From Globisporangium splendens (taxonomy: Eukaryota > Oomycota > Peronosporomycetes > Pythiales > Pythiaceae): a stretch of DNA of 64,000 nt. Within the stretch, counting starts at the first letter, position 1. Every line of letters starts with the position of its first letter. Under the pieces are notes generated by a model. The model searched no databases. It was not told where the DNA came from and worked only from the letters and a program-made list of their open reading frames with translations. A program made the translations under genes and the position numbers. The stretch lies in contig VFIW01000013.1 in the NCBI GenBank assembly GCA_006386115.1, forward strand, positions 248,001 through 312,000. Reading direction: 5' to 3'. Shown piece after piece: positions 19,551 through 57,060 of this stretch.

Positions 19551-19972
19551 GATGGACTACCATGCTGCGTGCATGCTGTCGATGTGAAAGCAGTGTGAAT
19601 GCTGGCGGGTGCTACTGTTGGACTTTGGATTTATTTACTCTGGCGCGATCAAAGGGAGGGTTGAAGTTGGCTGCGTACAGTGGCGCTCTGCATAAAGTCC
19701 GCCCCACTTGTTTTCGTTTTATCCCATGTGAACAGTGTGTGGTGTGGAGCACGGCGGATGGAGTAATGTTTTAAATCCTCATTTTTCGTTAAAATACGCA
19801 ACGTTTGCAACTTCATGCGAACCAAGGAAAGAACCTCGGTTGAGTCCATCAACTAACGGAACACCAGTATTTTGCATTGCGCTCCGTCCGTATAAGTCGC
19901 CACAATCCTTTTCGCGTCCTCGCACCCTAGCGGTAGCTCGCAGCTCTTTTCCTTGGCTTCAAGGTGCCCGCT
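19551..19972. other. Upstream region of the P450 gene
   Basis: No ORF of note. It presumably holds the P450 promoter; the stretch 19890-19972 is pyrimidine-rich, as is common just before oomycete starts. Confidence 0.4.
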
Positions 19973-29918: not shown

Positions 29919-30567
29919 TGTAATGGGCCATAACCAGCCATTACATGAAGGTGGATCTGTCCCCAGATCTAGTGTGTCACACACCACCTTCAGCGTGCAT
30001 TGTGGAGACACAAATAACAAAGGGATTACAGTAATACAGTCCCCACATGCACGTGTGACGTCATTCGATGACGTCACGAGTGTTCTCTGTGCTGATCAGT
30101 GCAGAATGTTGTTCTCATGTACTAATCAGTACAGAGTAATGACATCCATGTACTAATCAAGTACTGAGTGATGGTTCCTGCTTGGGAAACTGGACTGGCG
30201 ACGAGACCGACGTGTCTCTGCCACCTGGAGTGAGTGGCGCGAGCCAATCACTTTGCAGGGATTTTAAACAAGACTTGAAGTTCAAGCTTCTAGAAGATCC
30301 CGTAGGTTCAACCTCAGTGTACCCAAGGTTTTATATATCAGATTCATAGGTTTTATTGTGTATATTTAGGTTTTAGTTATAAAACCTGTAGGATCCCTTG
30401 GGGTTCATTTGTAAGTAGCGACAGGAACCATAACTTTTTTAATTCAGTTGCAAATTTTCCTCCAAGTCCTCAAGTCTTCTTCATCCCTCCAAGTCGGGAG
30501 ATCGCTTCCTCTGGCACAAGCGTGTGTGCCGTGTTTGAGGGACTGTTTGGAACAGCGCCCTCTTACA
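29919..30567 (+). repeat. A1 3' LTR
   Basis: 649 bp, same ends as the 5' LTR, differing at scattered positions (for example aataac for aatgac, tatattta for catgttta). Twin TGACGTCA boxes are conserved. Confidence 0.95.
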
Positions 30568-32989: not shown

Positions 32990-33062
32990 GTCTGGACTTT
33001 TTGGCGCTTCCGCACAAACTGGGCTACCTGCCTCAGCGCATCTTCTAGCTGGGCTCCCTGCG

Positions 33063-33597
33063 TGTAACGGGGTTACACTGTAACATGGTTACGCACTTGT
33101 GTTGTGCCACACAACCAAACTGAACCTTGCGGTACGTAGAGTACGCGCAACAAGTTTAAGACCGAACCATGAGGTTCGTCGTACTTGCTCGAACCTTCAC
33201 AGTGGAGCCGGCAGCCAGTCTGAGTGACGGCGCCTCCGATTGGATATAATTGAACATGCATTTCATCCAATCACATAAGACAACTAGCGTTAGTCTTTCA
33301 TAGCCACTCATTGCCCCATGGGGAGTAATTACACTTGAGATTGCTATTGTTCATAGTTACATAAAGATAATCCAGGTTGTCCTACAGAGGGCAACCTCCA
33401 ACAAATAAACAGTTCCATTTTTACCGTTAACTAAAGCCTTTGGTTATCGACGGTTACTCTATAGAGACCTATAGGTAACCGATTGTTGCACTGCAGGAAG
33501 CAGGCCACCTCTCTCGGAACAGAGTCCTTGAGAGAAGCGTTGAATACGCTTCCTCACACACGTACCGTGCTGCGTAACTCGGAAGTGTCCGGTTACA
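33063..33597 (+). repeat. Solo LTR of family C inside C1
   Basis: 535 bp, TGTAACGG...GGTTACA, opposite in orientation to C1 and about the length of the 35443-35977 LTR. Flanks ctgcg (left) and ctgcc (right) look like a 5-bp target duplication with one change. No internal sequence: product of LTR-LTR recombination. It interrupts pol between protease and RT. The flanks hold a repeated tract (agcgcatcttctagctgg) on both sides. Confidence 0.9.
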
Positions 33598-34372
33598 CTG
33601 CCACAGCGCATCTTCTAGCTGGGCTCCCTGCCACAGCGTGAGTGTTTTGAGCGGGGCTCGCTGCCACAGCGTGTTCAAAGCTCGCATCCATTGCGTGGAA
33701 ATTTTCCCGCAACCTTCGCTCTTCATCAGAGGAAGGGGTGGAGCTTCCGATTGTGCGTGCTCGCCAATCGATCCAAGCCTGATGTTTCGCCAGCCAAGGC
33801 ATCCCTAGGATGAGGTCGTACTTCGACCCCATCACTAGCACCACGAACGTTTCTTTGCAGACAAAGTCGCAAAAACTGAAAGAGAGTTCGACTTGAACCC
33901 CTTCAGTGTGTACTGTCGACCCATCGGCCAGACATACGATCATCTTCTCGCGCTTGCCACTGTGGACAAGTCGCTCATACGCGTGCAGACTCTGTTCCAG
34001 AGCTGACTTAGAGACGAAGTTCTGTGACGCGCCGCAGTCAACAAGAACCGTCATTTTCTTCTCATAGCCCTTCACATCGGCGCTATATACCAACATCTCA
34101 CTCGGAGCCTTGTTGCCAAGAGCTCCTGGGACTAAGCTTCCCATCTGCACGACTCTAGTAGTCGGCGACGCCGAAGCTATAGAGTCTGTCTCAGTAGAGC
34201 GTCCCGCTTCTACTGAGACATTCCGTTTCCTTTTCTTGCCGCAGCAGATCTGCCACCTCGATGAGCGTGGTTGCTGCGCGGCGTTTGGTAGTCTCTCGCC
34301 TGATTTCCAGTGCGAGGAGCGGGCTACCTTGGAGCGGGACACTTCGACTGATAGTGTCCCCGCTTGCCACAA
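33598..34372 (-). pseudogene. C1 protease region of Pol
   Basis: Overlaps the end of gag by 47 bp in the -1 frame. Contains the aspartic protease core LVDCGASQNFVSKSALEQ with the flap/second motif KYDLILGMPWLAKHQ. The active-site triad is D-C-G rather than the usual D-[ST]-G; the Asp is kept. The frame runs into the inserted solo LTR. No A AAA AAC heptamer is present at the gag end here, so family C must shift by another signal or this copy has lost it. Confidence 0.8.
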
Positions 34373-35370
34373 TTAAAGCAGGTCACTTCGGCGCTGCTGA
34401 GATCCATTGGTGTCGGACCATGGAAGCGCCGCTCATTCGTGACTGCTCGGTGGCTGTGATGCGCACCGTTGTGGCGGCCAGCGTTCCAATCAGGTCGGCT
34501 GACTCGGAACGATTGCTGCTCAACGAGCGCAATGCGGATCGCATCTTCCATCGTGGCCGGCAAGCGTCGGTACAACTCCTGACGCGCTGGTCCACTATTG
34601 AGGCCGTTGAGAAACGCAGGCACTTTCACAGACTCAGGCAAAGGGCTGGTCGTGATCGCCGCGCACAGGCTTCTCATCTCCTGGATGTATCGTTCCAGTG
34701 AGAGCTTCCCTTGTTTCAAGGAGAAGAAACGACCTTGCAACAGCACTTCGTTGTTCGGAGGCTGATACATGGCGGTGATTCTCGCACGGAAAATATCCCA
34801 CGTGTCGAATGCACACTCATCGGCGAGCAACGTCGAGAATGCCCATTCCGACGCTCGACCGCGCAGGTTCGAGATGGCGTAAGACACCATCTGCTCGTTG
34901 CTGTCGATGAGCTGAGCCTTGGCGCAACGCTCCACGGCGAGCAGCCAGTGGATGAGCTTGTCGCCATCCGCACCATCGAATTTCGGAGCGTCGATCTTGA
35001 CAGCTCTTGGGCGGGGAGTTTGGGACGCGGGTGTCTGAGGCGCAGAAACCGCACTCGACAAAGACGTGGCTGCACCAGCAACCACAGAAACCACTCGCTC
35101 GAGCGCTTCGCGCGACTCAGCAGCTGAGCGCAGCATCTCTGCGGTCAAGCTTGCGGTGGCTTGCATTTGTGCTTGCGCACTTCGCTCTCCTTCGAGGCGC
35201 TGAGCGTTCGAGAAGTTCTCGAACTGCTCGAGTCGAAAGATTTGCTGTTCCGGCGACGCCGAGAGCACGTCTAGAGCGACTTGGTCGCCTAGCGCTTGTG
35301 CCATTCGGGTCAGCACACTCCGGTGCTCAGCCGAGAGGTGCGGGAACTGCGCAGGGTCAATTGACGCCAT
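34324..35370 (-). CDS. gag: C1 Gag
   Basis: 348 aa from ATG 35370 (MASIDPAQFPHLSAEHRS), 72 bp inside the LTR. An N-terminal helical part is followed by a capsid-like core (LIHWLLAVERCAKAQ, AISNLRGRASEWAF, LSLERYIQEMRSLCAAI) and one zinc knuckle CFNCGKRGHYQSKC at the end. Same layout as family A Gag but only distantly similar. Intact in this copy. The element as a whole is dead, so expression would depend on its 5' LTR. Confidence 0.9.
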   Translation of the reverse strand: MASIDPAQFPHLSAEHRSVLTRMAQALGDQVALDVLSASPEQQIFRLEQFENFSNAQRLEGERSAQAQMQATASLTAEMLRSAAESREALERVVSVVAGAATSLSSAVSAPQTPASQTPRPRAVKIDAPKFDGADGDKLIHWLLAVERCAKAQLIDSNEQMVSYAISNLRGRASEWAFSTLLADECAFDTWDIFRARITAMYQPPNNEVLLQGRFFSLKQGKLSLERYIQEMRSLCAAITTSPLPESVKVPAFLNGLNSGPARQELYRRLPATMEDAIRIALVEQQSFRVSRPDWNAGRHNGAHHSHRAVTNERRFHGPTPMDLSSAEVTCFNCGKRGHYQSKCPAPR

Positions 35371-35442
35371 GATGAATCCTTGAGGAAGCGATTCAGGCAG
35401 TCACCTCTGCCGGGTCGTAGATTGACTACAAGTGCTACCAGT

Positions 35443-36161: not shown

Positions 36162-37706
36162 ATGGCCACCAACAAAGCTGTCCGCGAGAAGCTCGCGCGA
36201 CAAAAAGGGGAAGGCGTCGGCACTCTCGTCGAAACTCTGCGCAAGCGCGAGGAAGACAGAGAGGTCGCGTCGAGCGCAAGACGAACGACGGTCACCGCGG
36301 ATGCGGTCGACGTGCCTGCGGAGAGCGACGGCAGGTCTGCTCCCACATCTGATAGCGCTCCTGCTATAAGCAGTGAGTTGCGATTCGGAGACCTCCCTTC
36401 CGTGAAGCCGTTGTTCGCGCGTGCTTTGGAAGAGGAGGAAGCGACTGAGGAATTCCTCGTCGTTGACAATGACGGGAGCTCGCTTGAAGACGAGGGAGCG
36501 CTCACCGTGAAGCTCGGCTCCATCGACGAGTGGGTCGAGTACGAGGAGTTGCAAAGCGAGCGACACGCCGCTTATCTCCACGAGCTCGAGCGAGATCCAT
36601 CCGCTGACGTCTCGATGTATCGGACGAAGGAGGAAAATGACGCCGTTGAGGCTGTCAACAATCGTAAGAGGAAGCACGAAGTCCTCATTACAAACGAAGA
36701 GGCAGGAGTGCGAGCTGTCGTTCACGATGAGCTCAAGTACTCACTGCCCGAAATGCCGCCGCCAGAACTATGGCCGGCTGGCAAGACCGCATCGAATCTG
36801 CTCGCGAGAGCCAGACTTTGTGCGTGGGACTATGACGCTCAATTTAAAAATTGGCGTGAAAAGCGATTGCGGGATGAAAATGGGGAATTGCGTATTCACC
36901 CGATCCCAGTCGTCCTCTTTGTTGGAGAGACGGAAGAAGAGTACGATGCCGACTTCATGTCGTGCATCAATAAAATTAAGGGAGGTAGCACTCGCACAGT
37001 GTCTACCGATCCGACAGCGCAACGCAGTCAACGCATGCAATTTGCAGTTGACCGTGTTCGTCTGTTTCGCTCCAAGCAGGGCGGTGGCACGCCTCTGCGA
37101 GCGGGTGGTCGCGCTGGTATCAGGCGACAAATTACTCGCGCGAATGACAGTCCCTCAGTTGCGCCTCAAAGGCGTCAACAAGATCCGGGACGTCTTCGCG
37201 AAGACGCTCAGCAGGCTCCCACGAGCTCTGCGACACATCGTACCCACGCCACTTCACAAGGTAGTGGGTGTTCCCCTTACGCCGCTGCACACGCAGCAGG
37301 CGCTCAACATGGTAGTGGCGCTGTCCCTGCTTATCAATCAGCGGGACAGGTGGCGCCCTACTTCGCTTCAGCATCGGTGGTTGCACCAGATGCGATGGTT
37401 CAGATGGTTCACGCGAACGCATCGTCTTTGGGGGCGCTACAGCAAGCCGTCCGTACCCTTCGCCAGCAATATCTGGACGAAACCTCGCTGTTGAAGCAGA
37501 GGGTGACAGCGCTTGAGACGGAGCTGAAGGAAGCTCGTCAGATGCTGGAGGAGTACCATGTCCGCGGGAAGCACTTCCACGCGAGGTACGCTCCGCGAGT
37601 GAAGACGCTTTGGGAGAGGCACAACGCGCTCGTGTCTCGATGGGCGGCGTCTGAGCCCCCTGATGAGACCGACGTGCTCCCGGACTGGGATAAAAATCCA
37701 CAGTAG
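36162..37706 (+). CDS. C2 antisense ORF, 514-aa coiled-coil protein
   Basis: Opposite to pol. ATG 36162 in context GTATCATGG, 184 bp inside the 3' LTR; intact to TAG 37704. N-terminus: AVREKLARQKGEGVGTLVET, basic. Residues to about 170: acidic, with two LATR-like segments. Then a conserved-looking core (ARLCAWDYDAQFKNWREKRL, ELRIHPIPVVLFVGETEEE), a long low-complexity QA/ST-rich linker, and a C-terminal coiled coil (LGALQQAVRTLRQQYLDETS to LKEARQMLEEYHVRGKHF) ending WERHNALVSRW. About 970 bp of it lies beyond the pol stop at 37132, in sequence with no sense coding. A tryptophan-arginine segment (FKNWREKRLRD) may correspond to SWRRINDRDD of the family-A antisense protein, but similarity is too weak to claim homology. 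No TM segment, no env likeness. Confidence 0.75.
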   Translation: MATNKAVREKLARQKGEGVGTLVETLRKREEDREVASSARRTTVTADAVDVPAESDGRSAPTSDSAPAISSELRFGDLPSVKPLFARALEEEEATEEFLVVDNDGSSLEDEGALTVKLGSIDEWVEYEELQSERHAAYLHELERDPSADVSMYRTKEENDAVEAVNNRKRKHEVLITNEEAGVRAVVHDELKYSLPEMPPPELWPAGKTASNLLARARLCAWDYDAQFKNWREKRLRDENGELRIHPIPVVLFVGETEEEYDADFMSCINKIKGGSTRTVSTDPTAQRSQRMQFAVDRVRLFRSKQGGGTPLRAGGRAGIRRQITRANDSPSVAPQRRQQDPGRLREDAQQAPTSSATHRTHATSQGSGCSPYAAAHAAGAQHGSGAVPAYQSAGQVAPYFASASVVAPDAMVQMVHANASSLGALQQAVRTLRQQYLDETSLLKQRVTALETELKEARQMLEEYHVRGKHFHARYAPRVKTLWERHNALVSRWAASEPPDETDVLPDWDKNPQ

Positions 37707-40259: not shown

Positions 40260-41904
40260 GCGAACAAAGAGTTCTGTGAATGTCGTGGAAGCGCAGAACT
40301 CTTGCCCCGATGTGCGCAATGCACATGAAGTTTCCGCGAACAGATGTGAGCGTGTCGAGCAAGAGCCAGCCTTGATAGTCCACAAGGTTAAGGTAGATGG
40401 TTATTCAGAACCTCTACGGGCCCCTGTAGACACTGGTGCGTCGAACAATTTTGTCCGCACACAAGTGATGAGAAGACAAGGTTTGGACCTGCCTAACTCA
40501 AACAAGGAAATGACCGTTCGCTTGGCGAATGGATCGAAAGTGACGATGCCTAAGCGCGTGTTGCGTATGGCAATCGAATGTGATGATTTCCGAGGTGAAG
40601 ACGAGTTTATAGCACTCGACCTCGATGACAAGTTTGATCTGATTCTGGGAATGCCCTGGTTGAGAAGGTACCAACCGAGCATTGACTGGAAGAAGAAGAA
40701 GATCAGCGTCGACAAGCAAGTCGACGAAGACCTCAGCTGCCAGGCAGCAAGAGAGGTGATTTGGGCATATACATCTGTTGAAGATGTGTCTAATGAGAGT
40801 CAGGCGTGCGATGGCCCCTCACACTCAAATGACAAGCCCGTGAAGACCACTGGAGGTGGAGTAGTCAGGCGCCAGAAAAAGACTACTCCTGTAGCCAAGA
40901 GCGATGAAGGTTCCGCTCTGGCAGAAGGAAAGAAGACAAGAAGACCGACGAAGAAGAACGAAGATCTGCAAGCGTCCCTGATCAAGACACAAGAGAAGCA
41001 GAAGATGAAGTGAAGAAAGAAAAACAAGCCACTTCAAGCGAATATGTGAACGTCGCAGTCTACAATGAAGAAGGTGACAGCCAGATAGTGCGTCACGTAC
41101 AAGTTGAAAATCCTCCAAGTCTGGCTCAAGAATTGATTTCCTTGCCGTTGATGAGCAAGAAGACGCTCAAGCGTAGCCTGGCGAAAGGCGAAATTTCGCA
41201 AATTTGTGCGATCGTCGATGAAGTTGCCGACGATGTCATCAACACTGCGGAAGTGTTAGATGAGAAGACACGGAAGGAGAGGTTTGATGAGCAGTCGTGG
41301 GACGCTCTAAAGACAAACCCCGTGTATGGACTTGTCAAGGAATATGCGGACATATTCCCAGACAAAGTGCCTGACGAATTGCCGCAAGACAGAGGCATTC
41401 GTCACGAGATAGATGTACTTCCGGGAACGAAGTACTGTATCACAAGGCAATGGCCGCTACCGAAGGAACAAGTCGATGCAATCGATGAGTTCTTCGCGCA
41501 GCGACAGAAGGCTGGCCATGTGCGCGAGAGCAAGTCTCCGCACTGTAGTCCCACCTTCTGTGTTAAGAAGGCCACAGGTGGTTGGCGTATTGTTCATGCA
41601 TTCAACAAATTGAATGATGCGATCGTACCTGCTCAGACCCCAGTTCCACGTAAGGATATGATCCTTGATGGAATGGTTGGCAGCACTGTCTTTAGCGCGA
41701 TCGATCTGAAGGATGGATTCTATCAGATTCGTATGCGTGAGAGCGATGTACCATTTACAGCAGTAAGCACCCCTAGTGGTATGCTGTGGGAGTGGATGGT
41801 AATGCCACAAGGTCTGAAAAGCGCGCCAGCAACTTTCAACAGAATGGTCACAAATGTACTTCGTCCATTGAGAGAGTTTGCACCGAGCTACTTTGGCGAT
41901 ATCT
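40225..41904 (+). pseudogene. pol: B1 Pol, protease and RT, truncated
   Basis: Protease PVDTGASNNFVR (Pro for the usual Leu/Ala before V), then a one-base deletion near 40911 that shifts the frame until a new frame takes over at about 41010. RT fingers and palm follow (FCVKKATGGWRIVHAFNKL, LWEWMVMPQGLK), and the catalytic motif reads Y-F-G-D: codon 41895-41897 is GGC in place of GAC, removing one of the two metal-binding Asp residues. Coding ends seven bases later at the LTR. Confidence 0.9.
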
Positions 41905-42551
41905 TGTAAGAGGGCGCTGTTCCAAACAACCCCTCAAACACGGCACACACGCTTGTGCCAGAGGAAGCGATCTCCCGACTTGGAGGGAGGAAGAAGACTT
42001 GAGTACTTGGAGGAAAATTTGCAACTGAATTAAAAAGGTTATGGTTCCTGTCGCTACTTACAAATGAACCCCAAGGGATCCTACAGGTTTTATAACTAAA
42101 ACCTAAACATGCACAATAAAACCTATGAATCTGATATATAAAACCTTGGGTACACTGAGGTTGAACCTACGGGATCTTCTAGAAGCTTGAACTTCAAGTC
42201 TTATTTAAAATCCCTGCAAAGTGATTGGCTCGCACCACTCACTTCAGGTGGCAGAGACACGTCGGTCTCGTCGCCAGCCAGTTTCCCAAGTAGGAACCAT
42301 CACTCAGTACTTGATTAGTACATGGATGTCATTACTCTGTACTGATTAGTACATGAGAACAACATTCTGCACTGATCAGCACAGAGAACACTCGTGACGT
42401 CATCGAATGACGTCACACGTGCATGTGGGGACTGTATTACCGTAATCCCTTTGTTATTTGTGTGTCCACAATGCACACTGAAGGTGGTGTGTGCACACTA
42501 GATCTGGGAACAGATCCACCTTCATGTAATGGCTGGTTATGGCGCATTACA
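41905..42551 (-). repeat. Family-A type LTR, reverse orientation, joining B1 and B2
   Basis: 647 bp, TGTAAGAGGG...CGCATTACA on the plus strand. On its left, the B1 RT cut at TATCT; on its right, tcatccctccc, the purine tract of B2 in reverse. It therefore serves as the 3' LTR of B2 but also mirrors the 3' LTR of A2. Twin TGACGTCA boxes present near 42396-42417. Confidence 0.88.
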
Positions 42552-42698
42552 TCATCCCTCCCTTGAAGTTCCATCACGGACTTTACTTCTTTCGGAGAGG
42601 TACCCGCTCTCACTTTCTAATTGAACGTGAAGTGATCAAGCGACCAAGCGAAGCGCGAAGAACAGCCCGAGCCGAAGCGGCAGCGGACGACTCCCGGC

Positions 42699-43676
42699 TT
42701 GTACGACATCTCCGCTATTTGCAAGAAGCGTGGAGGACGTCGATTCTACAAGGAGTTGTTCTTCCTCTGGCGCAAGATGTCCGGCAGCGACGATCCAGGC
42801 CAGTCCAGCACAGCGAAGCTCGAGTCGTGGAAGACGCTTGTCCGACTCGAGAACGAGCATCTTGTCGAGCGTTTGCTAGGGAACCTAGGAGGCACGCTCG
42901 AGAACGACCATAAAGAGCTTGGCTCTCGTCGTTCTAGTGCTCGCAAGAGCACTACAAGCTCTGCTCGTAGCTGTGAACCACGTCGGGAACATCAGACTGA
43001 AGAGTCTCTCGAGGTTCCCACGTGTCTGAGTCCGGTGGATAGCCAAGCCACCGTACTCTGTAGAAGCGTTGACGGTTCAACGACTTCTCTCCTCGACGAC
43101 GAGTCGATCGATCCTCATGATCGACTATCGACTCAACGATCCAACGGCGCTCTCCCTGATGATCGATCAGAGGAGGTGGGGTTGAACGCGAAAACGATTG
43201 AGCGACTCTGGAAGTGGAAGAGTGCTCACCACGCTCAGATCGAGGCTCTTGAAGTTCGCAACGCGGTACTCGAAGACCGGTGCGAAAGCCTCGAAGACCG
43301 GTTGAAGGAGCAGGAGTCGAAGATCGACTTGCTGCTCGATGGTCTTGCCCAGCGTTCGGCAATGGAGTCACGTTTCGAACAGAGGTTCGAGAAGATTCAA
43401 GTCGAGCTTGAACGACTCCAGAAGGCTGAGAAAGCTCGTGATGCGTATCACGAACGTCTACTGCGCTCTGTGGAAGAGGCAGGGACTTCTCTTGAGATAC
43501 TTCGGAAGGAGTATCATGGTCGCCTTCTCGCATTGGAGACAATAAAGGACGAGTCCTTTGATGTGCTTCAGCGCCTTTATGCCGAGAAGAAGCTCCATGA
43601 CGATGAGTTACAGACTCTTCGCGAGCTGGTGGAGCGACTTCAGGATCAACTTGATCGTCTGCCAAAGGCTCTATAG
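42699..43676 (+). pseudogene. B2 antisense ORF, start degraded
   Basis: Homologue of the family-A antisense protein: YDISAICKKRGGRRFYKELF, DDPGQSSTAKLESWKTLVRL, then TIERLWKWKSAHHAQIEALE and a coiled coil to LDRLPKAL, stop at 43674, with few gaps against A2. The open stretch is 325 codons. The family start ATG (expected near 42634) is ATC here, and an indel puts the first 20 codons in another frame, so the N-terminus is damaged; the rest remains open over the region shared with pol and the region beyond it. Confidence 0.7.
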
Positions 43677-45973
43677 GGTTCGCTGACCCACTTGGAAGGT
43701 AAGGCTTTAGTCGACCTACGTAAACGTAGGGTGTAGTCGCATGCGTGTAGGTATGTCTAGCGTGTAGGCATCACCATTGCATTTCACTACCTTGAACGGT
43801 CCAATGAACCTTGGCAGAAGCTTGGAGCTTCCCAAGTTGGACACTGCATGTTCAGGCAGGTTCGCCGTGCTAAGTAATACAAGATCATTGATCTTATAAA
43901 CTTGCTTGTTTTTCCTTCCGCTCTTGTCTGCTTGTTCCTTTTGCAGATCCTGAGCCTTCGCGATTGCGTCTCGAACAAACCTCACAACGGCTTGTCTCCT
44001 CACAATAAAGTCATCGACTTGCTGTTCCTCACGACTTGTCATGTCGTCTAGAGGTTTCATCGAGTCAAAATTCGCTTTTAACTCTGTGACAGCATTCAGG
44101 TCTGACTGTGGCTCCTTAGCCATAGTCCCTCCCCCACTTAAGGTAGTAACCTCTCCTACTAGTGACGCTGGCACTCTCGGATGGAGTCCGTAGTTCACAT
44201 AGAACGGGGTATGACCTGTCGAGACATGCGTGGAGTTGTTCAACGCAAACTCGGCAAGAGGGAGAAACTCACTCCACTCTCCGAAAGACGTCGCATAACT
44301 GCGCAACACGTCTTCCAGGACACGATTCACTCGTTCAGTTTGACCATCTGTCTCTGGGTGTGCTGCTGTTGACATGGATAGTTTCGTATCCAAAATGCCA
44401 AGCAGAGTACGCCAGAATCTGGATGTAAATCGAGTGCCACGGTCTGATACGATCTCTGAGGGAAGACCATGTACGCGGAACACCGCGTCTACAAAGACTT
44501 TCGCAGTCGTCTCTGCTGAGATCTTGTCCGAGACCGGGGTGAGATGCACCATCTTACTGAATCGGTCCGCAAACACCAGGATGCCATTCCTACCATGTTT
44601 GTCCCTTGGAAGTCCGAATATGAAATCCATACTCACAGACTTCCAACTGTCCCTGAGGGACAGGTAATGAACGAAGTGGAGCCTGAGTAGAGCCAGATGG
44701 CTTAACTCTTTGGCACACTTCGCAAGTACGCACATACTTGCGAACCCACTTGTACATGTGAGGCCAGTAGTAATCTCGAGACAAGTTGAGAAACGTTTTC
44801 TCACGTCCGAGATGGCCACTCGAAGGACTGTCATGATACTCGTACAAGAGTCGATGACGCAGACCTTCGTCGTTGGGGACAACGATCCTCGCTGGATCCC
44901 CTTCGTCAACCGCATAATACAACAGCTCATTGTGCATGCTGTAACGGTGAACACGCGATCTTGCTCTTGATGGGAGGTTTTGGAGTGCCTTATCTGAGGG
45001 ATTCTTGAAATACTTGATCAGTTCTTGACATGCTTCGTCTCGCTTGTAGCCCTCAGCGATTTCTTCTTGGATTGTGCTTGCCACTCCCGTAGCAATCGTG
45101 TTGACGTCTTCACAGAGTCGGCACGCTCCGTTCGTGTCGTCACTCTTGTTCTTCGGATCATAGTCCGGACGTCTTGACAAAGCGTCAGCAAGTATGTTGG
45201 ACTTGCCGGGCTTGTAGTGTACAACAAAGTTATACTCAGCAAAGAAGGAAAACCATCTTGCCATTCTTTGCGATAGGTGAGGCGTCTTTACAGCTGTCCG
45301 CAGTGATGCGTGATCAGTGTAAATAGCGAACTGCTCCTCACCAAGCAAATAGACTCGGAACTTTGCCAATGCATACTTCATGGCCAAAAGTTCTTTGTCA
45401 TGGACCGGATAGTTCCTTTCTGCGGGCCTGAGTTGTCGTGATTGATACGACACAACTCTTTCTTTGCCCTCATCATCGTGTTGCATCAGTGCACACCCGA
45501 TGGCACAATCGCTCGCATCGCAGACTACATGGAACGGCTTCTCATGATCTGCGAGAGCTAGGACAGGAGCTTCTCTTAAGCTCTTCTTCACTTCAGCAAA
45601 CGCTGCCTGATGTTCCTCAGACCGCTCCCACTCATTGTCCTTTTTCAAGAGACTCGTGAGAGATTGCATTAATGCTGCGTAATTGCGTGTGTATTTGTGC
45701 AGGTAGTTCGTCAAACCCAACCACTGGCGTAGTTGTTTGACATTCTGAGGAATAGGCCAATCGTCAATAGCCTTGACTTTCTCAGGATCAGCTCGAACGC
45801 CATTCTTGCCAACAAAGCAACCGAGTACAGGGATCTCAGGGGCGAAGAAGATGCATTCCTTCAAGTTAGCGTATAATTTGTTTTCACGCATAACCTGAAA
45901 AACTTGACGAAGATGTTCAAGATGAACATCAACATCCTTCTTCTTTCCCAAAGCCTTACTGTGGACGAAGATA
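42952..45973 (-). pseudogene. pol: B2 Pol, RT thumb to chromodomain, frameshifted
   Basis: Three pieces: RT end, RNase H (HVVCDASDCAIGCALMQ, AIYTDHASLRTAV) and integrase zinc finger (44590-45973); integrase core with D (SVSMDFIFGL), D (IVSDRGTRFTSRFW), E (PETDGQTERVNR) and GPF end (43716-44954); chromodomain (HEDRSTRRRGEK, RFYRVRWLGYPPDSDTWEP) ending at 42952. Frameshifts near 44660 and 43740 separate them. Confidence 0.9.
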
Positions 45974-46624
45974 TGTAATGGGCCATAACCAGCCATTACA
46001 TGAAGGTGGATCTGTCCCCAGATCTAGTGTACCACACACCACCTTCAGCGTGCATTGTGGACACACAAATGACAAAGGGATTACAGTAATACAGACCCCA
46101 CATGCACGTGTGACGTCATTCGATGACGTCACGAGTGTTCTCTGTGCTGATGAGTGCAGAATGTTGTTCTCATGTACTAATCAGTACAGAGTGATGACAT
46201 CCATGTACTAATCAAGTACTGAGTGATGGTTCCTACTTGGGAAACTGGACTGGCGACGAGACCGACGTGTCTCTGCCACCTGGAGTGAGTGGCGCGAGCC
46301 AATCACTTTGCAGGGATTTTAAACAAGACTTGAAGTTCAAGCTTCTAGAAGATCCCGTAGGTTCAACCTCAGTGTACCCAAGGTTTTATATATCAGATTC
46401 ATAGGTTTTATTGTGCATGTTTAGGTTTTAGTTATAAAACCTGTAGGATCCCTTGGGGTTCATTTGTAAGTAGCGACAGGAACCATAACCATTTTTAATT
46501 CAGTTGCAAATTTTCCTCCAAGTCCTCAAGTCTTCTTCCTCCCTCCAAGTCGGGAGATCGCTTCCTCTGGCACAAGCGTGTGTGCCGTGTTTGAGGGACT
46601 GTTGTGGAACAGCGCCCTCTTACA
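45974..46624 (+). repeat. A2 5' LTR
   Basis: 651 bp, TGTAATGG...CTCTTACA, followed by CC and primer site TGGTAGCA. Differs from its 3' partner at about 10-15 scattered sites by eye. Confidence 0.95.
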
Positions 46625-46740
46625 CCTGGTAGCACTTCGAGCGGTCCTTCCAACGACCAAGTCAAGAAAGGTTTGACGACGCGGCTTTAAGCACTTCGCG
46701 CATTCCTGTCGAAGACCCTGCGAGCATCCTTGTTTGGAAC

Positions 46741-47800
46741 ATGGATGCTACAGGAACCCCACTCGGTCCAGCAGTACCGGGAACTGTCGAGTTGACTATT
46801 GAGGGTTTCCCTCATTTGTCTTCTCATGAGTGGATGGCGCTTGAGCGCATGCGAGATGTCATCGGAGAGGCTGCTGTGGTCAGTCTGCTTCGATCGTCAT
46901 CTCCGGAGGACCAGAAGAGCGCGGTGGTCAGCTTCATGCACCACGAGATCATGTCCTCCCGGAAGCAGGTCGCAACCCCTGTTTCCTCAATCAGGACGGT
47001 GCCACTGAAGCTTGACGTCTCTCCGTATCGCGGCGGAGAGAACGAACCCCTCTCACGATGGTTCGTCGAGTTGGATGCAGCGATCACTGCAAGACAACTG
47101 CAAGACAACTGCGAGACCCTTCGCAGCAAGTGTTGTTCGCGATGTCCAACCTTGCGGGTCGTGCGAAGAGCTGGGCGTATGGCAAGCGTTTAGTCGATCT
47201 GAACTGCTTCCCCAGCTACGATCATTTCAAGACCGAACTCAAGAAGGCGTTTGAACCTCCACAGAGTGAGTTCCGTGCGCGCGCCGAGTTCCTCAAGCTT
47301 CGTTAAGGCCGTTTCGACCTTCACTCGTATGCACAACGTGCTCGTTACTTGGTATCGAGCATCGTTGACGAGCCGATTGACGTTCCGACGCAAGTCGTGA
47401 CGTTCATGACGGGTCTGAACGATGGTCCGATTCGGAACCAACTGTTCCGCGAGTACCCAAGACGCTGGACGAAGCTATCGAACGTGCGATGCAAGAAGAG
47501 TTCAGCATCAAGCAAGCGAAGTTCCATGGGTTTGCGTCAAGACCAATGCGGCAATCAAATGTCGTGCATGATGGCCCCAAGCCCATGGACATCTCGTACA
47601 TTTCCACGCCTGGAAATGAGCGTCCTCGCAACGATGGGAAGTGTTTCCGTTGCGGGAAGCCGGGCCATATTGCTCGGAACTGCAAGGTGTCTTTGCCGGG
47701 TCGGCAAACGACACAAGGTGCTCGCTCGAACAACCACGATCGTTCTTACGGTCGTCGGTTCGAGCGGTCACCCGGGCCAAAAAACGGGAATGGACAGTAG
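46741..47800 (+). pseudogene. gag: A2 Gag, broken
   Basis: Starts MDATGTPLGPAVPGTVELTI. A direct repetition of gcaagacaact near 47090-47110 shifts the frame; in the restored frame a TAA occurs near 47304 (CAA in A1), and one C is missing near 47459. The zinc knuckle CFRCGKPGHIARNC is intact at the end (47641-47682 region). Confidence 0.9.
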
Positions 47801-47818
47801 GGGCGGGGCCTCCTACTG
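47779..47818 (+). promoter_or_regulatory. -1 ribosomal frameshift signal, A2
   Basis: A AAA AAC at 47779-47785, stem CAGTAGG/CCTACTG at 47795-47801 and 47812-47818, same spacing as A1. Confidence 0.88.
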
Positions 47819-50800
47819 GCCCGGAAAAGAGGACTGTGGACGTTGTGGAGACACAGGACTCTGGCCCCTATGTGCATCAAGCACATACAGTTTCCACTAT
47901 GAGTGAGAAGAGTGTCAGTCAAACGTCAAGTTTGATCGTTCACAAGGTTTATGTAGACGGTATTGCAACGCCTCTACGAGCTTTGGTTGACACTGGTGCG
48001 TCGAACAACTTTGTTCGAAATGAAGTGATCGTGAGGCATGGTGTCTTCGTGCCTGATGCGAATGAAGAGAAGACAATGATCGTCCGGTTGGCAAATGGGT
48101 CAACTGTGAAGATGCCGAAGCGCGTGGTGCGCTTGGCAATCGAGTGTGAAGATTTCCGAGGTGAAGACGAGTTTATTTTACTCGACCTCGATGACAAGTT
48201 TGATATCATCCTTGGAATGCCGTGGTTGAAGCGTTACCAACCTAGCATTGACTGGATGAATATGAAGATCTCCGTTGACAAGTCACGCGATGTTGACTTG
48301 TGCTGCACAACAACGGATGAAGTAGTATGGGTGTACACATCTGTGGAAGAGATCCCAGATGGCCCTTGTGATATTGCGGTGTGCGATGGCCCCCCATGTT
48401 CACAAGTGGTACCCATTTTGAAGACGGCGAACGGAGGTGGAGCAGTCAGGCGCCAGAGAAAGACTGTCTCCTTTCCCATCGACGACGAGAAGGTTCGCGA
48501 TGGCGTTGACAAGAGTGAATGGAAGAGGAACAAACACCCTTCCCAAGACAACAAGATGGAGACCAGCAAGAGAAGTGTTCCGCCAAGAGTTTTGAGTACC
48601 CCTGATCAAGGTACAAGTGGTGATGACAAAGGGAGTGTCCAAGCACAAGACATTCCAAACGAGTTTGTGAATATCGCGGTCTACAATGAAGAAGGTGACG
48701 TGGATGTAATCCGTCACGTGAAGATTGAAAATCCTCCAAGTTCAGTCGAAGAATTGATTTCCTTGCCATCAATGAGCAAGAAGACACTGGAGCGCAGCCT
48801 AGCGAGAGGCGATATTGCGCAGGTGTGTGCGATCGTCGAAATGGTCGACGAAGGCTTCGTCAACACAGCATCGAGTGCGGATGCAGATGTGTTAGACGAA
48901 AAGACACGGAAGGAAAGGTTCGAGGAGCAGTCGTGGACGCCCTCAAGAAGAACCCCGTGTATGCGCTTGCCAGGGAATATGAAGACATTTTCCCTGACAA
49001 GGTGCCGGACGAGTTGCCATTCGACAGAGGCATTCGTCATGAGATTGATGTACTTCCTGGCACGAAGTACTGCATCACAAGACAGTGGCCGTTGCAAAAG
49101 GAACAAGTCGAGGCAATCGACGAGTTCTTTGCACAACGTGCTAAGGCTGGTCATGTGCGGGAGAGCAAGTCTCCGCATTGCAGCCCCACTTTCTGTGTGA
49201 AGAAGGCAACTGGAGGTTGGCGCATTGTTCACGCTTTCAACAAGATGAACGACGCGACAATTCCAGCCCAGGCTCCGGTTCCACGCAAGGACATGATCCT
49301 TGATGGAATGGTTGGCAGCACCGTCTTTAGTGCTATCGATCTGAAAGATGGGTTCTATCAGATTCGAATGCGCGAAGACGATGTCCCACTAACCGCAGTG
49401 AGTACCCCGAGTGCTATGCTGTGGGAATGGTTAGTGATGCCACAGGGACTGAAGAATGCTCCTGCGACCTTCAATCGAATGGTCACGAACGTTCTTCGTC
49501 CTTTGCGAACATTTGCACCAAGTTACTTGGACGATATTTTCGTTCATAGTAAGGCCACGAATGGGAAGTCTGATGTCGATGTTCATCTCGATCATCTTCG
49601 TCAAGTTTTCCAGGTCGTGCGTGAGAACAAACTCTACGCAAACTTGAAGAAGTGCATGTTCTTCGCCCCCGAGATCCCTGTTCTCGGCTGTTTTGTGGGC
49701 AAGAGCGGTGTTCGAGTCGATCCGGAGAAGGTCAAAGCTATTGACGATTGGCCTGTGCCTCAGAACGTCAAACAGCTGCGACAATGGTTGGGTTTAGCCA
49801 ACTACTTGCACAAGTACGCGCGCAATTATGCAGCGTTGGTGCAACCCCTCACACAGCTCTTGAAGAAAGACGTTGAGTGGAAGTGGTCGAAAGACCATCA
49901 GATGGCGTTCGAAGAAGTCAAGAGGAGTCTTCGAGAAGCTCCTGTGTTGGCTCTGCCAAACCACGACAAGCCGTTCCACGTCGTCTGCGATGCGAGCGAC
50001 TATGCCATCGGTTGCGCCTTAATGCAACACGATGATGGGGGTCATGAGCGAGTTGTGTCGTATCAGTCACGACAACTCCGATCCGCAGAACGGAACTACC
50101 CAGTTCACGACAAGGAACCTCTGGCGATGAAGTATTCTTTGATCAAGTTCCGTGTGTATCTGCTTGGCAAGGAGCGCTTTGCTATCTACACTGATCACGC
50201 ATCTCTGCGTACGGCAGTGAAGACTCCTCATTTGTCGCAAAGAATGGCGAGATGGTTCTCCTTCTTTGCAGAGTACAACTTTGTTGTACACTACAAACCA
50301 GGCAAGACGAACATCTTAGCCGATGCGCTGTCAAGACGTCCGGATTACGATCCGAAGACCAAGAGTGAGGACACGGATGGAGCGTGTCGACTCTGTGAAG
50401 ATGTTCAAGCGATCGCGGTGCGAGCTGCGACTACAGTGCGAGAAGAGATCGTCGAAGGGTACAAGTCTGACGAAACATGTCAGGACTTGCTGAAGTACTT
50501 CAAGGACCCTTCAGACAAAGCACTGCAAGGTCTTCCGTCGCGCACAAGATCGCGAGTTCACCGCTTCCGAGTACTCAACGGGCTGTTGTACTATGCGGTC
50601 GAACAAGGGGATACAGCAAGGATTGTTGTTCCCAACGACGAAGGTCTGCGTCATCGACTCTTGTATGAGTACCATGACAGTCCTTCGGGTGGCCATCTCG
50701 GACGTGAGAAAACGTTTCTCAGTCTTTCCCGGGATTACTACTGGCCACACATGTACAAGTGGGTACGCAAGTATGTGAGGACTTGCGAGATCTGCCAACG

Positions 50801-52568
50801 AGTGAAACCCTCTGGTTCCACGCAGGCACCACTTCGTTCATTGGCTGTCCCATCGGATAGTTGGAAGTCTGTGAGTATGGATTTCATATTCGGACTTCCA
50901 AGAGACACACATGGACGCAATGGCATCCTTGTGTTTGTGGACCGATTCAGCAAGATGGTTCATCTTGCGCCTGTTTCGGACAAGATCTCTGCTGAGAAGA
51001 CTGCCAAGGTCTTTGTAGACGTCGTATTCCGTCTGCACGGACTACCAGTCGAGATCGTGTCTGACCGTGACACCCGTTTCACGTCCAAGTTCTGGCGTGC
51101 ACTGTTCGGACTCCTGGACACCAAGCTGTCCATGTCAACAGCGGTATACCCTGAAACGGACGGTCAAACAGAGCGAGTGAATCGTGTCCTCGAAGACGTG
51201 TTGCGCAGCTGCGCAATGTCTTTCAAAGAGTGGAGCGGCTATCTCCCTCTTGCCGAGTTTGCGTTGAATAACTCCACGCATGTCTCGACAGGTCACTCTC
51301 CATTTTATGTGAACTATGGCATTCACCCTCGAGTGCCTGCTTCCATAATGGGCGAGGTCTCTACCTTAAGTGGGGGAGGGACTCCGGCTCATGGAAACAA
51401 GCCGAAGTCGTCTTATGAACTGAATGCTGCTTCCGAGTTGAAAGCAAATTTTGACTCGATGAAACCCCTCGACGACCTAACAAGTCGTGAAGGGCAGCAA
51501 GTCGATGACTTTGTTGTGAGGAGACAAGCCGTTGTGAGGTTTGTTCGAGACGCAATCGCAAAGGCTCAGGATCTGCAAAAGGAACAAGCAGACAAGAGCG
51601 GAAGGAAGAACAAGCAAGTGTATAAGATCAATGATCTTGTATTAGTTAGCACGGCGAACCTGCCTGTACATGCAGTGTCCAACTTGGGAAGCTCCAAGCT
51701 TCTGCCAAGGTTCGTCGGACCGTTCAAGGTAGTGAAATGCAATGGCGATGCCTACACGCTAGACATACCTACACGCATGCGTCTACACCCGACATTTTAT
51801 GTGGGTAGACTGAAGCCTTACCTTCCAAGTGGATCTGCGGACCCTACGAGATCTTCCGCAAACGATCGAGCTGATCGTGGAGTTTCTCCACTTGATTGCG
51901 AAGAGCAAACAGCTCATCGCTCTGGAGATTCTTCTCGGCGTACAGGAGTTGCAGGGCGTCGAAGGATTGGTCCTTCACTGCCTCCAGCGCTTGAAGACGA
52001 GAATGGTACTCGCCACGAAGTACCTCGAGTGCCGAACCTGCCTCTTCCACAGAGCGCAACAGGCGATCGTGAGCCAACTCACGAGACTTCTCGTTCTTCC
52101 GGAGTCGAACAAGTTCGTCCTGAACCTGTTGGAACCGCTCCTCGAAACGGGACTCCAAAGCCGAATATTGGGTGCAACCTTCTGTCGGGACATCGATCTT
52201 CGACTCATGATCGGCGACAAGGTTCTCGAGACTCTCGCAGCGTTCCTCAAGTGTCGAACAACGCTGCTGCAAAGCCTCGATTTGCCCACGATGAGCACTC
52301 TTCCACTTCCAGAGTCGCTCAATCGTTTTCTCGTTCAGCCCCACCCCCGTTGTTAGACTCTCAGGGAGAGCATCGCTGGGTGGTTCAGTCGATTGTTGGT
52401 CATGAAGATCGACCGACTCATCGTCGAGGAAAGAAGCAGTTGAACCATCAACGCTTCTACAGAGTTCGGTGGCGTGGATATCCACCGAGCTCGGACACGT
52501 GGGAGCCTCGTCAGACATTGGAGTCTGATGTTCCCGACGTGGTCCGCAGCTATGAGAACTGCTTGTAG
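47785..52568 (+). pseudogene. pol: A2 Pol, near-complete, one frameshift
   Basis: Frame from the slippery site runs to about 48935, where one G is missing (tcgtggacg against tcgtgggacg in A1); the next frame continues to TAG 52566. Protease ALVDTGASNNFVRNEV and DLILGMPW-like ILGMPWLKRYQ. RT palm with SYLDDIF (49524-49535). RNase H CDASDYAIGCALMQ. Integrase HHCC (HDSPSGGHLGREKTF, CEICQRV), DDE (SMDFIFGL, SDRDTRFTSKFW, TDGQTERVNR). A disordered Ser/Arg/Pro linker (51830-52380), then a C-terminal chromodomain HRWVVQSIVGHEDRP with FYRVRWRGYPPSSDTWEP. Only the frameshift blocks a full Gag-Pol, and it could also be a sequencing slip. Confidence 0.93.
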
Positions 52569-52911
52569 CGTCGCCAGGGGCGACACTACGACGACCAGAG
52601 CTAGGGTTCGCTCTGTCGTCAGCGGGAGTTCTTCTTTCGGCACGAGCATTGCCACGACGAAGAAGACGCTCCATCTTGTTCTCGTTCTCAAGACGAACAA
52701 ATGTTCGCCATGAGTCTATCTGGGCTGCGATGTGTTGGTTCGGATCATCGCGATCGTTGATCCGACGCCAACTGAAGAACCGCTCCTTGTAGAACTCGAG
52801 CTCCCCCTTCTTCTTCAGAATGGGAGAAATGTCGAAGAGTTCTGGAGCTGTCTGCTGTTGCTTGGACGACGGACGTTCTTCTCGGTTCACTTGGTCACTT
52901 GGTCGCTTCAT
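51844..52911 (-). CDS. A2 antisense ORF, intact coiled-coil protein
   Basis: 355 aa, ATG 52911 (MKRPSDQVNREERPSSKQ), 76 bp from the 3' LTR; the frame is also open back through much of that LTR to 53145. Core FDISPILKKKGELEFYKERF and SWRRINDRDDPNQH, W-R-T-F-V-R-L-E-N helix, Ser/Thr-rich linker, then TIERLWKWKSAHRGQIEALQ, CSTLEERCESLENL and a continuous coiled coil to LDRLRKIS. Leucine heptads are visible but there is no clear basic region directly before them, so bZIP is not established. Positions 52569-52911 lie outside pol. In the overlap, antisense codon position 1 faces sense position 1, antisense 2 faces sense 3, antisense 3 faces sense 2. The most intact member; best reference for the family. 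Confidence 0.8.
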   Translation of the reverse strand: MKRPSDQVNREERPSSKQQQTAPELFDISPILKKKGELEFYKERFFSWRRINDRDDPNQHIAAQIDSWRTFVRLENENKMERLLRRGNARAERRTPADDRANPSSGRRSVAPGDATSSSHSCGPRREHQTPMSDEAPTCPSSVDIHATELCRSVDGSTASFLDDESVDLHDQQSTEPPSDALPESLTTGVGLNEKTIERLWKWKSAHRGQIEALQQRCSTLEERCESLENLVADHESKIDVPTEGCTQYSALESRFEERFQQVQDELVRLRKNEKSRELAHDRLLRSVEEAGSALEVLRGEYHSRLQALEAVKDQSFDALQLLYAEKNLQSDELFALRNQVEKLHDQLDRLRKIS

Positions 52912-52987
52912 TGCCAATTGGAAAGTGAACTGCTCCGAAAGGTCTGCAAAAGTACGCAAGGTACTTGTGACTTTAAGGAGGGGATGA

Positions 52988-53636
52988 TGTAATGGGCCAT
53001 AACCAGCCATTACATGAAGGTGGATCTGTCCCAGATCTAGTGTGGCACACACCACCTTCAGCGTGCATTGTGGAGACACAAATAACAAAGGGATTACGGT
53101 AATACAGTCCCCACATGCACGTGTGACGTCATTCGATGACGTCACGAGTGTTCTCTGTGCTGATCAGTGCGGAATGTTGTTCTCATGTACTAATCAGTAC
53201 AGAGTAATGACATCCATGTACTAATCAAGTACTGAGTGATGGTTCCTGCTTGGGAAACTGGACTGGCGACGAGACAGACGTGTCTCTGCCACCTGGAGTG
53301 AGTGGCGCGAGCCAATCACTTTGCAGGGATTTTAAATAAGACTTGAAGTTCAAGCTTCTATAAGATCCCGTAGGTTCAACCTCAGTGTACCCAAGGTTTT
53401 ATATATCAGATTCATAGGTTTTATTGTGCATGTTTAGGTTTTAGTTATAAAACGTGTAGGATCCCTTGGGGTTCATTTGTAAGTAGCGACAGGAACCATA
53501 ACCATTTTTAATTCAGTTGCAAATTTTCCTCCAAGTCCTCAAGTCTTCTTCATCCCTCCAAGTCAAGAGATCGCTTCCTCTGGCACAAGCGTGTGTGCCG
53601 TGTTTGAGGGGTTGTTTGGAACAGCGCCCTCTTACA
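52988..53636 (+). repeat. A2 3' LTR
   Basis: 649 bp, preceded by GGAGGGGATGA. Twin TGACGTCA boxes near 53125 and 53138. One arm boundary of the inverted duplication. Confidence 0.95.
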
Positions 53637-55317
53637 AGATATCGCCAAAGTAGCTCGGTGCAAACTCTCTCAATGGACGAAGTACATTTGTGACCATTCT
53701 GTTGAAAGTTGCTGGCGCGCTTTTCAGAACTTGTGGCATTACCATCCACTCCCACAGCATACCACTAGGGGTGCTTACTGCTGTAAATGGTACATCGCTC
53801 TCACGCATACGAATCTGATAGAATCCATCCTTCAGATCGATCGCGCTAAAGACAGTGCTGCCAACCATTCCATCAAGGATCATATCCTTACGTGGAACTG
53901 GGGTCTGAGCAGGTACGATCGCATCATTCAATTTGTTGAATGCATGAACAATACGCCAACCACCTGTGGCCTTCTTAACACAGAAGGTGGGACTACAGTG
54001 CGGAGACTTGCTCTCGCGCACATGGCCAGCCTTCTGTCGCTGCGCGAAGAACTCATCGATTGCATCGACTTGTTCCTTCGGTAGCGGCCATTGCCTTGTG
54101 ATACAGTACTTCGTTCCCGGAAGTACATCTATCTCGTGACGAATGCCTCTGTCTTGCGGCAATTCGTCAGGCACTTTGTCTGGGAATATGTCCGCATATT
54201 CCTTGACAAGTCCATACACGGGGTTTGTCTTTAGAGCGTCCCACGACTGCTCGTCAAACCTTTCCTTCCGTGTCTTCTCATCTAACACTTCCGCAGTGTT
54301 GATGACATCGTCGGCAGCTTCATCGACGATCGCACAAATTTGCGAAATTTCGCCTTTCGCCAGGCTACGCTTGAGCGTCTTCTTGCTCATCAACGGCAAG
54401 GAAATCAATTCTTGAGCCAGACTTGGAGGATTTTCAACTTGTACGTGACGCACTATCTGGCTGTCACCTTCTTCATTGTAGACTGCGACGTTCACATATT
54501 CGCTTGAAGTGGCTTGTTTTTCTTTCTTCACTTCATCTTCTGCTTCTCTTGTGTCTTGATCAGGGACGCTTGCAGATCTTCGTTCTTCTTCGTCGGTCTT
54601 CTTGTCTTCTCTCCTTCTGCCAGAGCGGAACCCTTCATCGCTCTTGGCTACAGGAGTAGTCTTTTTCTGGCGCCTGACTACTCCACCTCCAGTGGTCTTC
54701 ACGGGCTTGTCATTTGAGTGTGAGGGGCCATCGCACGCCTGACTCTCATTAGACACATCTTCAACAGATGCATATGCCCAAATCACCTCTCTTGCTGCCT
54801 GGCAGCTGAGGTCTTCGTCGACTTGCTTGTCGACGCTGATCTTCTTCTTCTTCCAGTCAATGCTCGGTTGGTGCCTTCTCAACCAGGGCATTCCCAGAAT
54901 CAGATCAAACTTGTCATCGAGGTCGAGTGCTATAAACTCGTCTTCACCTCGGAAATCATCACATTCGATTGCCATACGCAACACGCGCTTAGGCATCGTC
55001 ACTTTCGATCCGTTCGCCAAGCGAACGATCATTTCCTTGTTTGAGTTAGGCAGGTCCAAACCTTGCCTTCTCACCACTTGTGTGCGGACAAAATTGTTCG
55101 ACGCACCAGTGTCTACAAGAGCCCGTAGAGGTTCTGAGTAACCATCTACCTTAACCTTGTGGACTATCAAGGCTGGCTCTTGCTCGACACGCTCACATCT
55201 GTTCGCGGAAACTTCATGTGCATTGCGCACATCGGGGCAAGAGTTCTGCGCTTCTGCGACATTCACAGAACTCTTTGTTCGCCCAGTAGGGAGCCCCGCT
55301 CCTACTGGTCGTTCCCG
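53637..55317 (-). pseudogene. pol: B2 Pol, protease and RT, split by A2
   Basis: About 560 codons open from the frameshift site: REWTV-like start RERPVGAGLPTG, protease ALVDTGASNNFVRTQV and DLILGMPWLRRHQPS, a charged linker, RT HEIDVLPGTKYCITRQWPL, FCVKKATGGWRIVHAFNKL, then Y-F-G-D with GGC at 53644-53646 (minus strand) in place of the Asp codon, the same mutation as B1. Coding is then interrupted by A2 and resumes at 45973. Confidence 0.92.
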
Positions 55318-56452: not shown

Positions 56453-57060
56453 TGTAAGAGGCTATCCGAGACAGCCTCAAACACAGCACGCACGCTCGCG
56501 CTTGAGAGGAAGACTTGAGAGGAACCTGGCAAAAATGCAACTGAATTGAAATGAGCTTATGGTTCCTGACGCTACATATAAAACACCACTAGGACTCCTA
56601 GAGGTTTTATGCATAAAACCTAAACATGCAGAAATAAAAACTATGAATCTAATATATAAAACCTTGGGTACACTGAGGTTGAACCTACGGGATCTTCGAG
56701 AAACTTGAACTTGAAGTACCGCGGGGATTCTCTGCGAAGTGATTGGCTCTGCCACTCACTTCAGACGGTAGACACACGTCGCTCTCATCACCAGTGTTGT
56801 TTCCCCAAGTAGGAACCATCATTCACATGTCTAGAGTACTGTTGTGCGTAATCACGCCGAATCTCAATGATTGCGAGCGACCAACACTCAACTCAGACAC
56901 AGATTGCTCTGACGTCAGACGATGACGTCACCTGTGCATGTGGGGATCACTTTTATGTGCTTCACCCAATACCTTCGCACCTACAATGCACTTCCACAAG
57001 GCGGTGTGTGACACACACAAAGATCCACCTTGCATGCAATGGCAGCCTTAGCCCATTACA
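56453..57060 (-). repeat. B2 5' LTR, pure family-B type
   Basis: 608 bp, TGTAAGAGGC...CCCATTACA on the plus strand. U3 is strongly diverged from family A, and the three ATCA palindromes are gone, but twin TGACGTCA boxes remain at 56910 and 56923, still 13 bp apart. Confidence 0.9.
56910..56930 (-). promoter_or_regulatory. Twin CRE-like boxes in the B2 LTR
   Basis: TGACGTCA 56910-56917 and 56923-56930, with the 5-bp spacer changed relative to family A (gacga against ttcga on the plus strand) but the box-to-box distance kept. Suggests selection on paired bZIP-type binding. Confidence 0.65.

Follow-up and report, generated by a model that had tools for sequence, protein, structure and literature searches.

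A stretch of 64,000 nucleotides from the oomycete Globisporangium splendens (assembly GCA_006386115.1, contig VFIW01000013.1, positions 248,001 to 312,000), called the window below, contains a cluster of retrotransposons, which is adjoined by a cytochrome P450 frame (19937-21532, plus strand; Pfam E 5e-68). Six tandem 336-bp repeats with 96-98% identity occupy positions 8078-10057 within a 1368-codon frame (5978-10084), and 162-bp repeats at 7344-8129 are common to 11495-11956.

The element of main interest, A2, is nested in element B2, and the 5-bp target duplication AGATA is found on its two sides (45969-45973 and 53637-53641). The domains of its pol follow in the order RT, RNase H, H2C2, integrase core, SH3_Tf2-1, linker and chromodomain. 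The SH3_Tf2-1 match ends at about 51821, the chromodomain (Chromo, PF00385; Pfam E 2.9e-10) occupies 52377-52556, and the linker between the two comprises 185 residues. On the opposite strand, an open frame of 439 codons extends over 51844-53163. With the ATG at 52911 and the stop codon at 51844-51846, it holds an intact frame of 355 codons, exactly where the original prediction had placed an antisense gene. The features discussed below are the following.

45974-53636, plus strand: Ty3-type LTR element A2 (family A), delimited by LTR matches and boundary reads
48729-52568, plus strand: pol open frame of A2
52988-53636, plus strand: 3' LTR of A2
51844-52911, minus strand: family A antisense gene, 355 aa
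52569-52911, minus strand: antisense-only part, aa 1-114, with a basic N-terminus and a predicted three-helix head (from dN/dS and the model)
52377-52568, minus strand: antisense aa 115-178, opposite the chromodomain and the pol stop (from codon tests and the model)
51847-52376, minus strand: antisense aa 179-355, a long helix and predicted coiled coil, opposite the SH3-to-chromodomain linker
52922-52928, minus strand: match to the oomycete initiator (INR) YCAYTYY, 17 nt upstream of the antisense ATG
28778-29842, minus strand: antisense gene of A1, protein 93% identical to that of A2, no stop
42627-43667, plus strand: antisense gene of B2 (element on the minus strand)
36162-37706, plus strand: family C antisense gene, 514 aa (element on the minus strand), with a chromodomain opposite

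The antisense gene starts between pol and the 3' LTR, which are 419 bp apart in A2, and two thirds of it overlap pol. Its first 114 codons lie beyond pol, the remainder is opposite the chromodomain and the linker, and its stop codon is 22 bp away from the end of the pol SH3 match. Within the overlap, position 1 of an antisense codon pairs with position 1 of a pol codon, position 2 with pol position 3 and position 3 with pol position 2. Since the 3' LTR begins at 52988, the antisense ATG is located 76 bp inside the internal region of A2. The original prediction is refined in that a promoter-like motif sits between the LTR and the ATG.

The gene had been reported for A1, A2 and B2. It is intact in A1 and A2, but the B2 copy must be regarded as decayed, because it lacks the ATG and has TGA as its third codon; its frame is open from codon 4 on and its protein is 58.6% identical over 353 aa. 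The LTRs of B2 (41901-42558 and 56506-57060) are mismatched: the 3' LTR is 97% identical to the A2 LTR, the body belongs to family B, and the 5' end shows a match of only 325 bp, at 79%. This mismatch suggests recombination between families.

A genome search with the family A antisense gene yielded at least 114 scored copies, and 91 of these 114 contain no stop in the matched stretch; only the best candidates were scored, so that the count is a lower bound biased to intact copies. A query from a second subfamily (P0049, about 60% identical) gave 117 scored places, partly the same as those of the first query. The nearest annotated proteins are G. splendens FI667 entries named 'hypothetical protein, partial', with 96% identity and below; many annotated 'hypothetical proteins' of this species are thus transposon genes. 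Relatives from other sources (contigs under 4 kb, presumably metagenomic) can be aligned over nearly the full length, down to 42% identity. A search for the DNA of these relatives in IMG/VR and GTDB genomes produced pattern matches, none of which was confirmed. Stops are accordingly confined to a minority of the copies scored in the G. splendens genome, and the relatives elsewhere keep the frame. The antisense gene P0041, located on the same contig as L067, is a mosaic of a family B head and a family A coiled coil, so that head and coiled coil have been exchanged between subfamilies.

Two residues of the antisense protein, P137 and A147, report the chromodomain of the far strand, because in this phase the antisense codons opposite its Trp-Arg and Trp-Glu must read Ala and Pro. 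Of 31 aligned proteins, 30 have both residues, and only P0059 deviates, with Ser at the first of them. From this sequence signature we infer that the relatives also have a chromodomain opposite the antisense gene.

Antisense genes in retroelements have often been argued from open frames. The present case rests on selection analyzed strand by strand and on constraint which switches strands at domain borders. For the codon tests, 62 of 72 loci were codon-aligned; the ten loci lacking the MKR start or 330 codons from it were excluded, which favours intact copies. Frame stops were counted in 58 of 60 loci, those with an antisense frame of at least 340 codons, a choice favouring open antisense frames. 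Within the antisense-only stretch, stops interrupt all five alternative frames in every one of the 58 loci, and the antisense frame in 5 of them.

Substitutions follow the antisense reading frame independently of its openness. If pol alone mattered, antisense position 2 should be the most variable. This is the case in the integrase/SH3 control, where L001 and L031 differ 7, 33 and 6 times at antisense positions 1, 2 and 3, respectively; the pol wobble position takes 33 of these 46 differences and leads in 6 of 6 pairs. For the same two loci the counts are 48, 37 and 73 in the coiled coil, 12, 14 and 7 opposite the chromodomain, and 34, 32 and 53 in the antisense-only part. Among the 12 pairs compared, the closest ones show too few changes opposite the chromodomain to tell. 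Parsimony on internal branches gives 106/105/216 changes at the three positions for the coiled coil, 26/48/19 opposite the chromodomain and 84/72/127 for the antisense-only part. On terminal branches position 3 has a smaller excess in the coiled coil (62/76/104, p 0.04), and the reversal opposite the chromodomain is absent, with position 3 slightly ahead there (16/33/41, p 0.42). A weak or absent signal on these branches is expected if many such changes arose after insertion.

The original prediction proposed that the part beyond the pol stop is conserved, and a ratio near 1 at 52569-52911 would have counted against it. The antisense-only dN/dS (NG86) is 0.23-0.44, well below 1, in 10 of 10 pairs, which are not independent since they were drawn from five sequences; position 3 leads there as well. 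In the overlap, both strands were evaluated with an overlap-aware count written for this analysis and modelled on OLGenie (six pairs of four sequences). For the coiled coil it yields 0.23-0.35 for the antisense protein (each of the six upper bounds is at most 0.53) and 0.72-1.17 for pol. Opposite the chromodomain, the antisense values are 0.63-1.46 and those of pol 0.19-0.52, with wide intervals. Taken together, the overlap-aware and position counts indicate that in the linker the antisense protein is kept and the pol linker is a passenger. The stretch facing the chromodomain is constrained by pol and is not kept as antisense protein.

These data bear on two readings in which the protein plays no part. 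The frame could have arisen passively, from the codon usage of pol or because the copies are young and have decayed little: codon bias can produce open antisense frames, and many family A copies are about 95% alike. Nevertheless, pol does not extend over a third of the gene, and only one of the six frames is open there in most copies; selection keeps the antisense frame in a region in which it does not keep the pol linker, and the antisense protein is kept at 42-60% identity. The antisense-only dN/dS and the overlap-aware values contradict a passive origin, which is scarcely credible. Alternatively, the antisense RNA alone could matter through double-stranded RNA or transcriptional interference, the frame being incidental. 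Non-coding antisense RNAs are reported for other retroelements in a published account (PMC7264820), but an RNA-level function does not predict that selection tracks antisense codon positions, and the codon-position reversals at the chromodomain borders contradict it; this explanation is very improbable. The locus is almost certainly a real antisense protein-coding gene. The element thus carries a third gene, on the opposite strand, of which selection maintains the head, beyond pol, and the tail, opposite an unconserved linker. With purifying selection, stop-free copies and relatives that keep the frame, the proposal of a conserved antisense gene of oomycete Ty3 elements holds.

An AlphaFold2 model of the family A antisense protein was built with 31 sequences. 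Its global pTM is low (0.28), and its confidence is below 50 at residues 1-22 and 94-180; the latter stretch covers the part facing the chromodomain (about 119-179). The head consists of three helices in the model (38-51, 61-76 and 80-93), and residues 31 to 90 have a block confidence of 84-91. It is followed by a single helix of 171 residues (184-354; block confidence 59 at 181-190, then 83-98). Of the 31 aligned members 20 were scored for periodicity, and in 17 of them the strongest hydrophobic signal has a period of 3.5 residues; two of the three exceptions have cut-off tails of 75 and 81 residues. The head is therefore predicted to be a small helical domain and the tail a long coiled coil.

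The head has no relative that could be found by sequence searches of Pfam, NCBIfam and PDB, in which the protein obtained only generic coiled-coil scores below the cut-offs. When the head alone was searched by sequence, only its own family was returned (36 proteins). Foldseek comparison of the whole-protein model with PDB gave 27 matches at E<=10 and none at E<=0.001; in a second structural look at 80 chains, matches were listed only within residues 178-355, so that the head was not covered. The 31 members match 21 Pfam families at E<=0.01, and TRP28 (PF04195) is not among them. Within their first 40 residues, 13 of 20 members (of 31 aligned) have a pattern KR-x(11-13)-K[KR], which resembles two-part nuclear signals. 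The A2 protein lacks it, having KQQQ at the second cluster.

The basic N-terminus and the coiled coil suggest how the protein could act. Entry into the nucleus would be mediated by the former and oligomerisation by the latter, and a nuclear oligomer is a rather likely form of the protein. The two-part basic signal of part of the members could also be taken in favour of a partner of integration or assembly, which would bind its own integrase-chromodomain or Gag and serve particle assembly, nuclear entry or target choice; families A, B and C point in the same direction, since all of them have the gene at that end of pol where the chromodomain lies. Such a role is unlikely, as no interface, domain or fold match supports it and a physical overlap with pol requires no functional link.

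Transcription of the gene could start close to its ATG. The sequence YCAYTYY is described as the oomycete initiator by Roy et al. 2013 (PMC3599244). Its match precedes the antisense ATG by 17 nt in 57 of 62 copies and by 16 nt in three, and is absent in two; because these copies are closely related, the conservation rests on about three independent lineages. The spacer between the INR region and the LTR varies among families A, B and L061. In the whole window, the minus strand has a single match to the extended pattern YCAYTYYNCAWTT, at the A2 antisense gene, and the plus strand has two, which lie within the pol genes of A1 and A2; the A1 antisense gene has none. If the INR defined the start, the leader would measure about 15 nt, which is below the range of 32-144 nt given for the high-confidence set of P. 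infestans in the initiator study (PMC3599244). The motif was not found in the 100 nt before the antisense ATG of family C. From the motif and its position in family A, an own promoter near the antisense ATG appears fairly probable.

An extended start inside the LTR was also considered; it is not preferred, since the frame upstream of MKR varies between families and contains a stop in L061 and L062. On the sense strand of both A2 LTRs, an initiator-like TCACTTTGCA is located at 46303 and 53316 (plus strand) and is a candidate sense start site.

A second antisense gene of this layout belongs to family C, whose gag, protease and pol are found in the window at 30563-35400 on the minus strand. The frame at 36162-37706 is the same gene as the antisense gene of L073, a family C copy elsewhere. 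In L073, pol ends with SH3 and a chromodomain, and the antisense gene of 514 aa starts beyond pol, overlaps the chromodomain and the linker in the same phase as in family A, and leaves 4 bp between its stop and the end of the SH3 match. A genome search with the family C gene scored 84 matches, including a subfamily at 61-64%. Its antisense-only part comprises 323 codons. Here dN/dS between subfamilies is 0.32 and 0.33 (L075 vs L079 and L080; bootstrap 0.20-0.47), and the other four pairs give 0.37, 0.41, 0.71 and 1.17, of which the two highest values speak against a simple reading; L074, the frame of which is broken, was left out of the set. The family C antisense gene is also under purifying selection in its antisense-only part. 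For its coiled coil the intervals decide nothing, because the copies compared are nearly identical there. The model of the family C protein has low confidence (mean 42.5), with a helix at 409-466.

Between the antisense proteins of families A and C, no similarity was detected by BLASTP (best E 0.087), and profile comparison returned a 20-column alignment at a probability of 0.3%, that is, noise. Identity between the pol proteins of the two families amounts to 61% in a stretch of 634 residues with RT, to 53% in one of 294 residues with integrase and to 34% at the SH3-to-chromodomain end. The antisense proteins, lacking detectable similarity while pol is still recognizable, resemble arms-race proteins, and they could be anti-silencing factors which prevent the host from silencing the element through small RNAs or chromatin. 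Double-stranded RNA would itself arise from antisense transcription over pol, and such a factor could offset it. However, the average family A dN/dS is well below 1 in both kept parts, and anti-silencing is a quite improbable function. A tentative and broader possibility is that this Ty3 clade keeps a dedicated antisense slot, extending from near the 3' LTR to the integrase SH3 end in one fixed phase, into which unrelated coiled-coil proteins (at least two, those of A/B and of C) have been fitted. The family A pol linker would then be set by the antisense gene, with the pol strand being a passenger there.

Regulation of the element is placed first among the functions, followed by partnership in integration or assembly and then by anti-silencing, an order that is itself inferred. 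In the regulatory scheme, the gene would be transcribed antisense to pol from its own initiator beside the ATG, independently of the 5' LTR, and the nuclear, oligomeric product would act in trans on the expression or silencing state of its own family, as is thought for HBZ and the plant antisense accessory proteins. That the protein regulates the element instead of assisting in integration or assembly is a tentative assignment, with a chance somewhat short of even. The proposal as a whole, consisting of an own initiator, a nuclear oligomer and trans regulation of the own family, might equally well prove right or wrong. The most economical reading is probably that of a nuclear, oligomeric accessory protein of the element, produced from its own promoter.

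The locus provides a natural example of two genes that share DNA, in which the kept parts of one gene face slack parts of its partner. With it, the range of antisense accessory genes comes to include oomycetes, where two proteins without apparent relationship occupy the same slot, and the role of antisense genes in LTR elements becomes testable in a genome with more than 200 scored copies.

The kind of gene is already known, since antisense extra genes have been found in plant and fungal retrotransposons and in retroviruses. The proteins HBZ and APH pair through a leucine zipper. According to a published description, HTLV-1 HBZ and the related deltaretrovirus APH proteins are nuclear proteins encoded by an antisense gene at the 3' end (PMC10186651). 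They are transcribed from the 3' LTR, whereas the promoter-like motif of the A2 gene is outside the LTR. HBZ possesses a bZIP domain, and the antisense protein of the window has no bZIP match at E<=1; among five scanned proteins, only the relative P0077 matched bZIP (PF00170, E 0.13), below the cut-off of that family.

Among plant LTR elements, antisense additional ORFs are described for the Retand lineage (TRP28), Grande (gene23), RIRE2 and PvRetro13 (PMC11963269, PMC7264820). These accounts report that the Grande antisense protein is nuclear, that a promoter is located upstream of its gene, and that the PvRetro13 antisense protein contains an SMC domain (PMC11963269, PMC7264820). The plant antisense genes are described as lying between pol and the 3' LTR, where the A2 gene has its start, and as being kept in most copies, as is the family A gene. 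In Retand, as far as it is described, they occupy a region of 2.9-6.6 kb beyond pol, in contrast to the 419 bp and the two-thirds overlap of A2. The family A gene shows no TRP28 (PF04195) in Pfam at E<=1, although it may be a very remote relative. Retand is presented as a non-chromovirus (without a chromodomain), unlike A2 with the chromodomain in its pol, and the host here is an oomycete. The brtn gene of Boty from Botrytis cinerea is similar by description, being an antisense extra gene of a Ty3-type element in a filamentous plant pathogen (PMC8365987, PMC7264820).

The Ty3 elements named Chronos are reported from Peronosporales and Pythiales with a chromodomain at the pol end (PMC5348765), a feature shared by A2. 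They are described as having a second, plant-type RNase H, whereas A2 pol matches RT-linked RNase H models only (E<=1). The word antisense does not occur in the main text of the Chronos paper (PMC5348765). No description of the present oomycete antisense gene was found among the open-access papers searched, in accordance with the claim that it was undescribed. New, as far as searched, are the oomycete proteins themselves, the large portion of DNA that their gene shares with pol, and a constraint that switches between the strands. The system is set apart from those described above by its oomycete host, the pol overlap, the strand-switching constraint, the orphan head and the two apparently unrelated proteins found in one slot.
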